Source: an uncultured Ectothiorhodospiraceae bacterium | GTDB lineage: Bacteria; Pseudomonadota; Gammaproteobacteria; UBA6429; Thiohalophilaceae | Direction: 5' to 3' | DNA length: 64,000 nucleotides | NCBI GenBank assembly: GCA_947259575.1 | Contig: CAMYMU010000046.1 | Location: forward strand, 1 to 64,000 | In this document: in pieces, positions 41,371 through 44,275 of the stretch | How positions within the stretch are numbered: the first letter of the stretch is position 1 | Layout: every line of letters starts with the position of its first letter | The notes under the pieces: model-generated | Databases searched by the model: none | The model's input: the letters and a program-made list of their open reading frames with translations, nothing else | Told to the model about the DNA's origin: nothing | Made by a program: the position numbers and the translations under genes

Positions 41371-42552
41371 TTATATTTGGGTTAGTCCTGTCTCAAGATC
41401 TGCTTTAATATCCTTCACTGATTCAAGACCCACCGCAATTCTAAGTAAGCCCTGGTAAATGCCCGTCTGTAAACGCTCATCATCTGTCAGCCGACCATGC
41501 GTGGTCGTCGCAGGATGAGTGATTGTCGACTTTGTGTCTCCCAGGTTCGCAGTAATCGATAACAGATTTGTATTATCAACCACTGTCCATGCCGATTGCT
41601 GGCCGCCATCCACTTCAAAGGCCAGTACGCCACCAAAGGCGTCTTGTTGCTCGCGTGCAAGCAAATGCTGCGGATGTTGAGGTAGACCAGGATAGTGAAC
41701 ACGCTTAACTTTGGGATGATCAAATAAATGAACGGCTAGTTCCAAAGCTTTAGCGCTATGTGCCTGCATGCGCAGTGATAGTGTTTCCAGTCCACCTAAA
41801 AACAACCAGGCATTAAATGCACTCATGGTAGGACCCGCGGTACGCAAAAACCCAAAGACTTCTTCGCCAACGGTTTTTTTATCGCCAACAACTGCACCAC
41901 CCATTGCCCGACCCTGACCATCTATGTATTTGGTCGCAGAGTGAATCACGACATCCGCACCCAATTCTAATGGACGTTGCAAGGCAGGTGTGCAGAAACA
42001 ATTATCAACCACCAGCAAACAATCATGTTTGTGTGCCAATTCAGCAATTGCCTTTATGTCCGCCACTTCAATCAAAGGATTAGAAGGTGTCTCTAAAAAA
42101 AGTAATTTCGTATTGTCTTTAATTGCGGCTTCCCAACTAGCCAGATCAGTTTGCGAGGCATAACTGGTTTCAATTCCATAGCGTGATAAATATTTATTAA
42201 ACAGGACAACTGTCGAGCCAAAAATACTGCGTGAAGAGACAATGTGATCGCCGGCTTGTAACAAGCTTAAACAGGTACTGAGGATGGCAGACATACCACT
42301 GGCCGTCGCCACACAAGATTCCGCCCCTTCCAGTGCAGCCAGACGTTCTTCAAAGGTGCGCACAGTTGGGTTTGTGAAACGCGAGTAGATATTGCCGACC
42401 TTGTCGCCTTTAAATGTTGCTTCAGCTTCAGCTGCGTTTGAGAAAACATAACTGGATGTCATAAATATCGGATCAGAGTGTTCGCCTTCTTGGCTGCGCT
42501 GCTGTCCAATACGAACCGCCTGTGTCTCTATATCCCAATCTTGTTCACTCAT
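41371..42552 (-). CDS. metZ: O-succinylhomoserine sulfhydrylase
   Basis: A 393-residue PLP enzyme of the Cys/Met metabolism family, forming homocysteine from O-succinylhomoserine and sulfide. The PLP lysine is in HSATKYIDGQGR (about 207), and the phosphate-binding ATASGMSA stands near 83. The position directly behind purF is that of Pseudomonas metZ. It has its own leader with a SAM-II-like riboswitch and terminator, so end-product control by S-adenosylmethionine is expected. Confidence 0.93.
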   Translation of the reverse strand: MSEQDWDIETQAVRIGQQRSQEGEHSDPIFMTSSYVFSNAAEAEATFKGDKVGNIYSRFTNPTVRTFEERLAALEGAESCVATASGMSAILSTCLSLLQAGDHIVSSRSIFGSTVVLFNKYLSRYGIETSYASQTDLASWEAAIKDNTKLLFLETPSNPLIEVADIKAIAELAHKHDCLLVVDNCFCTPALQRPLELGADVVIHSATKYIDGQGRAMGGAVVGDKKTVGEEVFGFLRTAGPTMSAFNAWLFLGGLETLSLRMQAHSAKALELAVHLFDHPKVKRVHYPGLPQHPQHLLAREQQDAFGGVLAFEVDGGQQSAWTVVDNTNLLSITANLGDTKSTITHPATTTHGRLTDDERLQTGIYQGLLRIAVGLESVKDIKADLETGLTQI

Positions 42553-42602: not shown

Positions 42603-42644
42603 AAAAACGACAAAACCCGCTCAGCAGTTGCTAAAGCAGGTCGT
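42603..42644 (-). terminator. attenuator terminator in the metZ leader
   Basis: On the minus strand, CCTGCT (42635-42640) pairs with AGCGGG (42616-42621), followed by TTTT, with an additional outer pairing ACGA/TCGT and a second T-run (42603-42607). It stands directly behind the riboswitch and 50 nt ahead of the metZ start. The sequence CTTTAGC (42630-42636) overlaps the left arm and is complementary to GCTAAAG in the riboswitch, providing an antiterminator. Confidence 0.75.
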
Positions 42645-42645
42645 T

Positions 42646-42698
42646 CCTCTTTAGCTGGTTTTATAAAGCGCCCGCAAGCTGTATCAAATCGGCGCTGG
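42646..42698 (-). promoter_or_regulatory. SAM-II-type riboswitch upstream of metZ
   Basis: On the minus strand the order is GCGCC, GATTTGA, CAGCTTGC, GGCGC, TTTATAAAA, CCAGCTAAAG. This matches the SAM-II layout as I know it: a P1 stem (here GCGCC/GGCGC, 5 bp) whose loop holds GATTTGA and GCTTGC, an A-rich joint and a conserved GCTAAA that closes the pseudoknot. SAM-II elements control methionine genes and are best known from alphaproteobacteria. Here metZ is the regulated gene, which fits the ligand. Confidence 0.87.
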
Positions 42699-42717
42699 TA
42701 TTACTATGTTGAGTTGT

Positions 42718-42746
42718 AGACTAGGTCATCACTCACCAAGAGTCAA
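42718..42746 (-). promoter_or_regulatory. candidate sigma-70 promoter of metZ
   Basis: Minus-strand TTGACT (42741-42746) and TAGTCT (42718-42723) with a 17-nt spacer. It lies between the purF stop and the riboswitch, so the transcript would begin about 12-15 nt before the aptamer. The -35 box matches five of six consensus bases and the -10 box four of six. Confidence 0.55.
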
Positions 42747-42751
42747 CATCT

Positions 42752-44275
42752 TCAGGCTGAATTGTACAGTTCCACGAACTCACCATCATTACTCTGCTCA
42801 TCTTTGCTCCGTGCAGAATCGTTACGCGCATCTTCGATGCCTTTGAGATATTCTGGTGTCACGTCACCGGTAACATACTCACCATCAAACACTGAAGTAT
42901 CAAATTGATCAACATTTGATTTGGACTTTTTCTTGACTGCTTCGCGCAAGTCATCCAGATCCTGGTAGACTAACCAATCCGCACCAATTAATTCTGCAAT
43001 CTGTTCTGCTGTTCGGTTGTGACCAATCAGTTCACTTGCAGCCGGCATGTCAATGCCATAAACATTTGGATGCCGCACGGGCGGGGCCGCTGAGGCAAAG
43101 TAAACTTTTTTCGCACCCGCATCGCGGGCCATTTGAATAATTTCTTGTGAGGTGGTTCCACGAACAATTGAATCATCCACGAGTAGAACATTTTTTCCCT
43201 TAAACTCCAGACCAATTGGGTTTAGCTTTTGACGCACTGATTTTTTACGCTGTTTCTGGCCTGGCATAATGAAGGTACGACCGATATAACGGTTTTTAAT
43301 AAAACCTTCGCTGTAACGAATCCCTAAGTGATAAGCCAGGGATAGCGCAGAGGTCCGACTGGTATCAGGGATCGGTAGCACGGCATCGATATCGTGATCA
43401 GGATAGGTGCGCTTGATTTTCCGTGCCAGATACTCTCCCATCCGTAAGCGCGCTTTATAAACAGAGATGCCATCCATCACCGAATCAGGACGTGCAAAAT
43501 AAACATGCTCGAAGATACAAGGTGAACGCACAGTGTTCTCTGCACATTGCTTAGCATTCATTTGACCATTGACGTCGATGTAAATAGCTTCGCCAGGATC
43601 AATGTCTCTAACTAGCTCATAACCCAAGGCATCTACGGCAACACTTTCTGATGCAACCATGAAACAATCTTTACCATTCGCAATCTTCTTACCAATAACG
43701 GCAGGACGAATGCCATGTGGATCGCGAAAAGCAACAATACCTCTGCCAACAATCAAGGCAACAACCGCATAGGCACCACTGCAGCGACGATGTACACCTT
43801 CAACTGCGGCAAAAATATCCTGAGGTTCTACAGTCTGCTTACCCTGCACACGGGTCTGTAACTCGTGGGCAAAAATATTTAGCAAGACTTCTGAATCAGA
43901 ATTGGTATTGATGTGACGTTGATCAGTTTCAAATAACTCGCGTTTCAACTGCTCAGCGTTGGTCAGGTTGCCATTGTGAGACAGTGCAATACCAAAGGGT
44001 GAATTGACATAAAACGGTTGCGACTCTGCCGAAGAAAAACAGCCTGCCGTGGGGTAACGTGTGTGCCCTATCCCCATATTGCCTTGAAGCCGCAACATGT
44101 GGCGGGTGTGGAAAACATCGCGCACCAAACCATTGCTCTTACGCAGGTACATGCGATCAGCATCACAGGTCATGATACCGGCAGCATCCTGTCCGCGGTG
44201 CTGTAGCACCGTCAAACCATCGTAGAGATCCTGATTGACTGCACTATTTGAAACTATACCAATGATGCCACACAT
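42752..44275 (-). CDS. purF: amidophosphoribosyltransferase
   Basis: A 507-residue enzyme for the first step of purine synthesis, glutamine-dependent transfer of ammonia to PRPP. The N-terminal glutaminase has the nucleophile Cys2 (MCGIIGIV). The PRPP-binding motif [15 protein letters not shown] lies at about 363-377. It follows cvpA by 71 nt, the usual cvpA-purF pairing. Confidence 0.97.

Follow-up and report, generated by a model that had tools for sequence, protein, structure and literature searches.

The 199-nt gap between purF and metZ on the minus strand of a 64,000-nt stretch of DNA (the window) houses a SAM-II aptamer, and we are confident, if short of certain, that this leader is a SAM-II riboswitch controlling metZ transcription, with SAM binding, promoter use and SAM-dependent termination as its predicted steps. 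It likely acts as a transcriptional OFF switch. The support in hand is the identity of the aptamer, covarying P1 and P1a-like pairs, exclusive pairings, a recurring expression platform and the target gene. By sequence match, the SAM-II type of the window is widespread in the window's class and is predicted in about half of the sampled genomes.

A SAM-II aptamer between purF and metZ

The presumed regulated gene, metZ (41371–42552, minus strand), encodes an O-succinylhomoserine sulfhydrylase (NCBIfam NF006003, 675.6 bits, cut-off 522), so that the element stands ahead of a methionine/SAM gene, and the upstream gene is purF (42752–44275, minus strand; TIGR01134, 518 bits, cut-off 350). The same order of purF, SAM-II and metZ occurs in a relative, locus L410, where purF was called by eye and metZ by tblastn. 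A covariance-model search with RF00521 matched the minus strand at 42630–42705 with 39.5 bits against a gathering score of 36 (E-value 2.1 × 10−5 for the whole window and all 4227 families). This score and E-value speak against a chance similarity; it is also the only RF00521 match in the window's genome, and none of 14 control genomes matched the model. The Rfam search thus bears out the SAM-II identity that an earlier note had read from the letters and had proposed to check in this way. The SAM-V model (RF01826) matched neither the window nor the leader in the Rfam search, and membership of that family was rejected; SAM-II long loop (RF01726) was rejected at 17.1 bits against a cut-off of 44.

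All parts of the aptamer lie on the minus strand. The 5′ strand of P1, AGCGCC (42691–42696), placed by the cmscan alignment, pairs with the 3′ strand GGCGCT (42667–42672), placed by the RF00521 alignment, to give six pairs (42696–42691 with 42672–42667); the GCGCC/GGCGC stem drawn earlier is present and had been read one pair short. The loop GATTTGA (42684–42690), located by sequence and the RF00521 alignment, has its GATTTG invariant in alignment A1 and is presumably the third strand of a triplex, by analogy with the SAM-II structure. It is followed by CAGCTTGC (42674–42681), the 5′ strand of the P2 pseudoknot by sequence and the RF00521 alignment, with its pair register set by analogy. A pair between C 42681 and G 42647 is possible, but the adjoining position of P2a is A-G and mismatched, leaving the window a single P2a pair (C-G). 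The A-rich joint TTATAAAACCA (42656–42666) is marked by G-C/A-T/C-G covariation in relatives, and its C 42657 can form a P1a-like pair with G 42673. GCTAAAG (42649–42655), assigned from sequence, the RF00521 alignment and folds, would serve both as the 3′ strand of P2 and as the 5′ strand of an antiterminator. GATTTGA, the joint, GCTAAA and the strand of the GCTTGC region had all been named in the earlier note, and each has its place here.

Predicted terminator and antiterminator in the metZ leader

Upstream of the aptamer, the minus strand carries a −35-like TTGACT (42741–42746), recognized by sequence and roughly matched in position by a TTGACA in close relatives, and, 17 nt after it, a −10-like TAGTCT (42718–42723) that fits three of six consensus positions. 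The pair as a whole fits 8 of 12 consensus positions and its −35 box falls under the threshold of the scan we used; L010 and L014, both close relatives, carry TTGACA-17-TAATCT at a similar position. Downstream, folds predict a terminator hairpin ACCTGCTTTAGC-AACT-GCTGAGCGGGT (42615–42641, minus strand), and behind it lies the U-tract TTTGTCGTTTTT (42603–42614, minus strand), which is interrupted by GTCG; at least six unbroken T follow the aptamer in 162 of 211 relatives. A consensus scan for promoters and terminators reported neither signal, in the case of the terminator, we think, because the bulge of the hairpin lies outside the scan's rule. The order of promoter, aptamer and terminator proposed before can be located in full, with flanking signals weaker than the earlier note implied.

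Folds and shuffle statistics mark CCTGCTTTAGC (42630–42640, minus strand) both as the left arm of the terminator and as the 3′ strand of the antiterminator. Its CTTTAGC (42636–42630) is the exact complement of GCTAAAG (42655–42649), as had been pointed out and as can be read directly in the sequence. When the RNA was folded at growing 3′ ends, P1 appeared alone, then P1 together with an antiterminator GCUAAAGAGG/CCUGCUUUAGC, and then the terminator once its right arm was out; one intermediate length departs from this series. Folding thus predicts what is looked for in a transcriptional riboswitch: a terminator, and an antiterminator that draws on part of the aptamer and cannot coexist with it. 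The terminator is the more stable of the two when folded alone (−13.9 against −10.1 kcal/mol), and read-through without SAM would therefore have to be kinetic.

These folds suggest how the switch would work. RNA polymerase would make the aptamer first and the left arm of the terminator afterwards. At low SAM, the 3′ strand of the aptamer would pair through its GCUAAAGAGG with CCUGCUUUAGC to form the antiterminator, which would hide the left arm of the terminator and let metZ be transcribed. With SAM plentiful, SAM would fix the pseudoknot of CAGCUUGC with GCUAAA and block the antiterminator, the terminator hairpin would form and transcription would end before metZ.

Pairing and platform across relatives

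We compared 211 unique elements collected with a pattern that demanded GATTTG (or GGTTTG), TTGC, GCTAAA and a GGCGC-like strand. Positions required by the pattern are no evidence, and covariation was taken only from positions not demanded. At such a position the outer pair of P1 covaries across the 211 elements (mutual information 0.56), and double changes occur at three of the six P1 pairs. The P1a-like pair, which links the joint to the nucleotide that follows TTGC, is G-C in 196 elements, A-T in 9, C-G in 1 and something else in 5, and is seemingly one of those predicted for SAM-II from mutual information (PMC2258182). In a set of 29 diverse sequences, the share of cells that pair is 96.8%, compared with 91.3% when shuffled and 34–55% when slid. 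All three core pairs of P2 are invariant, so pairing is possible throughout and the pseudoknot is not shown by covariation. For the same kind of reason, compensatory changes in GCTAAAG/CTTTAGC, suggested earlier as a check, were not found among these elements and the test cannot work, because GCTAAAG is nearly invariant. A candidate compensation at a variable position beside GCTAAAG was rejected, as C-G occurs 76 times but A-G also occurs 33 times.

The expression platform recurs. A terminator-like hairpin with a T-run follows the aptamer in 176 of the 211 elements, and in 133 of these 176 its left arm contains CTTTAGC with at most one mismatch; by the rule used, the other 35 elements have no terminator. 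In 144 of 211 elements, against 18% of dinucleotide shuffles, the downstream sequence contains CTTTAGC, and antiterminator helices of at least nine pairs occur in 99 of 211 and in 5% of shuffles. Terminators bearing CTTTAGC are distributed unevenly by gene (metZ, 102 of 124; metK, 17 of 24; metX, 1 of 9). The metX platform thus appears to be built differently and, given this count and the 35 elements lacking a terminator, the antiterminator is not universal in relatives. Taken together, the folding and the relatives agree with the terminator and antiterminator model put forward in the earlier note.

Three elements with high RF00521 scores (L111, L113 and L115, from genomes G223, G327 and G085) have no terminator by the same rule and carry TAGGAG near the start of a metZ-like gene; the P1 of L111 is approximately CGTGTT/GGACACG. 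These three are possibly under translational control.

Could the window's aptamer act mainly on translation or message stability, with the hairpin a weak or constitutive terminator? The interrupted U-tract of the window would fit such a reading, as would L111, L113 and L115 and the Sinorhizobium metA SAM-II, which controls translation and for whose terminator no response to SAM is predicted (PMC9373788). We nevertheless regard it as unlikely: the aptamer ends 96 nt ahead of the metZ start codon, a terminator is found in 29 of the 30 elements L001–L030, 27 of them with CTTTAGC in the left arm, and the complement of the aptamer strand recurs in terminator left arms. A relic, in which SAM binding has been lost or the platform is dead in the window's genome, is a very unlikely alternative. 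Compared with relatives the window does have a weak −10, a broken U-tract and a one-pair remnant of P2a, but the RF00521 alignment shows GATTTGA, TTGC and GCTAAA intact, and the deviations from alignment A1 fall at variable columns. Transcriptional control of metZ remains our preferred reading of the leader.

Distribution of the element

At E ≤ 0.001, RF00521 matched 37 of 58 relatives (the window's own genome counted), 17 of them over the cut-off, and 32 of the 36 other genomes of the window's family. Across 369 sampled genomes of the class it matched 118, with 31 over the cut-off and scores of 26–48.5 bits, and in 200 genomes of the order of genome G143, which we infer to be beta-proteobacterial, it matched 87, with 36 over the cut-off and scores of 25.5–52.5 bits. 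A sample of the phylum gave matches in 84 of 398 genomes, 70 of them over the cut-off; those outside the class reach 88 bits, with a minority down to 26, and the same-phylum genomes outside the class are read as alpha-type. Two elements from such genomes (L439 and L440, in G610 and G880) have a gamma-type P1 3′ strand, GGGCGC, together with a short P2a, and may mark transfer between classes.

We built a covariance model, R1, from 29 diverse elements including that of the window, for which its score of 69.9 bits is therefore circular. R1 gives matches in 183 of the 369 class genomes; its E-values are rough, and in 22 of the 183 the best E-value is weaker than 1 × 10−8. Of 20 R1-found genomes that RF00521 had not matched in the class sample, chosen by eye, 16 have the element ahead of metZ, one each ahead of metK, metF and a gene that is metN-like by eye, and one ahead of none of these; RF00521 scored 19 of the 20 loci at 21–29 bits, under its cut-off. 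A separate set collected with a metZ query comprised 80 named metZ loci of 520 relatives, with the element in 35 by the strict pattern and in 36 by R1. Nearly all loci bearing it come from gamma-proteobacterial metagenome genomes, joined by Sideroxyarcus and Ferriphaselus. In another set of loci, L171 and L213 have no motif at the expected place, and the match in L226 is doubtful.

Genes downstream of the elements

Among 185 unique elements from queries other than metZ, 168 precede methionine/SAM genes (metZ-like 122, metK 27, metX 13, metF 3, metH 2 and metN 1) and 17 precede something else. Even below the Rfam cut-off, 99 of 107 elements precede such genes. Genes were called by the best tblastn match to four references, with metH and metN assigned by hand and an NCBIfam check on one gene of each kind; 'metZ' accordingly means the best match among the four references and includes close paralogues.

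Several further observations concern gene context. Copies ahead of metK (L008, L009, L015, L017, L030 and others) mostly have CAGATTGC in place of CAGCTTGC, and this A variant is present in 19 of 27 metK and 9 of 148 metZ copies, possibly reflecting affinity tuning or shared descent. At L153 a SAM-II element lies upstream of a cysB-like regulator gene. By model match, genome G281 holds five tandem pairs of SAM-II elements (L344, L345, L347, L349 and L351), and a further pair is found in G393 (L346). In L344, L345 and L346 an aptamer and a terminator are followed by a second aptamer with altered P1, ahead of short ORFs that do not resemble methionine genes; by eye, ORFs near the arrays resemble a helicase and a transcriptional regulator. 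With so many pairs in a single genome, the unit may be mobile or duplicated. In two genomes of G143's family, manganese (yybP-ykoY) riboswitches (L367, 735–919; L384, 2177–2373) lie about 0.6 kb from a metX SAM-II element.

A short P2a helix

The element resembles RF00521 (SAM_alpha, or the metA element) in P1, GATTTGA, TTGC, the A-rich joint and GCTAAA, and also in the terminator that follows the pseudoknot. The window type departs from the RF00521 norm in its GCGCC..CAG(C/A)TTGCGGGCGC..GCTAAAG sequence and in a P2a that in most elements does not exceed 2 bp. A long P2a in the gamma/beta elements was rejected: the longest helix between linker and tail is at the shuffled level (3.1–3.5 against 3.0–3.4 pairs), and at least five pairs are possible in only 15 of 211 elements. 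What persists is a 2-bp remnant: its first pair is C-G in 205 of the 211 elements, and its second can form, as a Watson-Crick or G-U pair, in 165. The window element has no 5-bp P2a helix, a feature not required of SAM-II; 60% of SAM-II RNAs are reported to have it, and a known metX SAM-II has 2 bp (PMC6061858).

The motif was found in 29 of 30 alpha-type loci, in 29 of 30 loci of G143's order, and in 25 of 30, 25 of 27 and 106 of 115 loci of further sets. In the best-scoring 30 alpha-type loci, all 24 unique elements have at least five P2a pairs, with a mean of 5.4 against 4.4 in shuffles, a high shuffled level that is due, we think, to G+C-rich linkers. Because the best-scoring 30 were biased, we added 20 lower-scoring alpha-type loci. 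Thirteen of these met the pattern, with a mean of 3.8 pairs (shuffled, 3.8) and at least five pairs in 3 of 13; of the other seven, outside the pattern, five have at least five pairs by eye. L439 and L440 belong to these 20. A short P2a was thus rejected as a divider between gamma/beta and alpha types, since many lower-scoring alpha-type elements are short too. As judged from these sequences, a short P2a is common in gamma/beta elements but not exclusive to them, and the types grade into one another.

The window type also resembles SAM-V, which has a P2a of about 2 bp and a common ligand core but is translational (PMC6061858). In L074, L051, L100 and L410 an extra stretch, a clear hairpin in L074 and L410, lies between the 3′ strand of P1 and the A-rich joint and recalls the P3 of SAM-V.

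Two probable further names for the element

RF02424 (Bp2_287, or Bp2_Cand287_SIPHT) is listed in Rfam as a small RNA on the opposite strand, and its consensus, as aligned, reads like the reverse complement of a SAM-II element. It adjoins purF, metZ and metX, and its discoverers proposed a cis element of methionine metabolism in a main text from which 'SAM-II' is absent (PMC3521395). Of 20 loci found by R1 alone, 14 have an RF02424 match, under the cut-off of that model, on the strand opposite the element. The survey of 200 genomes from G143's order yielded 41 RF02424 matches, spread over 39 genomes; set against the RF00521 matches judged relevant, 25 overlapped one, always on the opposite strand, and the other 16 did not. 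R1 matched the opposite strand in 12 of 12 RF02424 loci examined, partially in L410. That locus holds the one match over the cut-off, at 107.5 bits, and its other strand reads purF, GCGTC GATTTGA ... CAGCTTGCG GACGC, an extra hairpin, CAGCTAAAGCG, a terminator and metZ; the fold of this leader lacks P1 as drawn, the 5′ strand of P1 pairing further downstream. The RF02424 cut-off was reached in none of 20 metX-type loci. From these alignments, the RF02424 model seems to represent the strand antisense to a SAM-II leader. That the functional product in the window is an opposite-strand small RNA, as the 'Burkholderia sRNA' RF02424 implies, is hardly credible: the model matches the plus strand of the window leader (14.7 bits, below the cut-off of 70) and the opposite strand of many relatives, but only 1 of 200 genomes passes the cut-off, the passing match lies opposite a purF–SAM-II–terminator–metZ leader, and the SAM-II core and promoter-like boxes of the window are on the metZ strand.

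In beta-proteobacteria, Leyn et al. described an element named metXZ, which lies ahead of metXW and metZ and combines a pseudoknot with a terminator (PMC4239095). Like the type described here, it precedes metX or metZ and has two pseudoknot pairings and a terminator behind them, and its consensus has M (A or C), as in the window-type CAG(C/A)TTGC; it differs in having been published as novel, with no link to SAM-II in the passages that describe it (PMC4239095). Of 60 genomes searched in G143's family, 52 have an R1 match, and metX follows the element at each of the 30 best loci. Compared by description rather than alignment, the metXZ element and this SAM-II type are very probably the same thing. 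The Neisseria gonorrhoeae lineage adds no confirmation of this identity, as DNA upstream of N. gonorrhoeae metX has no motif and the locus scores only 10.6 bits (E = 0.46).

Discussion

Taken singly, the window element is ordinary, because a transcriptional metZ SAM-II in Sinorhizobium and SAM-II in gamma-proteobacteria were already known. The Sinorhizobium meliloti RZ RNA shares the gene, the riboswitch class and a predicted SAM-dependent terminator, and differs in its alpha-proteobacterial host; this RNA of about 100 nt is higher in rich medium, which was treated as high-SAM (PMC9373788). SAM-II elements with terminators are in print (PMC1273637), as are SAM-II elements in gamma- and beta-proteobacteria (PMC2258182, PMC2704228), the gamma-proteobacterial ones reported in 2007. 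The earlier note had considered a transcriptional gamma-proteobacterial metZ SAM-II worth documenting; for the single element these precedents answer that, and the wider occurrence in the class is the more interesting result.

We think it probable, with somewhat less assurance than for the window itself, that these elements represent a gamma/beta type of SAM-II with the same SAM pocket, a nearly fixed GCGCC/GGCGC stem, a P2a of about 2 bp and mostly a terminator, and that it is a main methionine/SAM switch across much of the class (metZ, metX, metK, metF, metH and metN). It would have stayed hidden because RF00521 scores it low, Rfam holds the antisense RF02424 and metXZ was published separately. 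In the titles, abstracts and passages of openly licensed literature, we found none that equates SAM-II with metXZ or RF02424, nor any that describes this breadth.

What deserves attention is the breadth in the class together with the two probable hidden names, RF02424 and metXZ. Re-training or splitting the Rfam model, together with a review of the strand of RF02424, would correct routine annotation. The combination of a short P2a with a terminator bears on the suggestion that a long, stable P2a goes with transcriptional SAM-II and a short one with translational SAM-V (PMC6061858). In earlier work, a survey of about 200 genomes recorded SAM_alpha in the Rhizobiales and Rhodobacterales alone (PMC4239095), and the gamma-proteobacterial cases were called sporadic and perhaps transferred (PMC2258182); the predicted presence of the element in about half of the sampled genomes of the class would alter that map.
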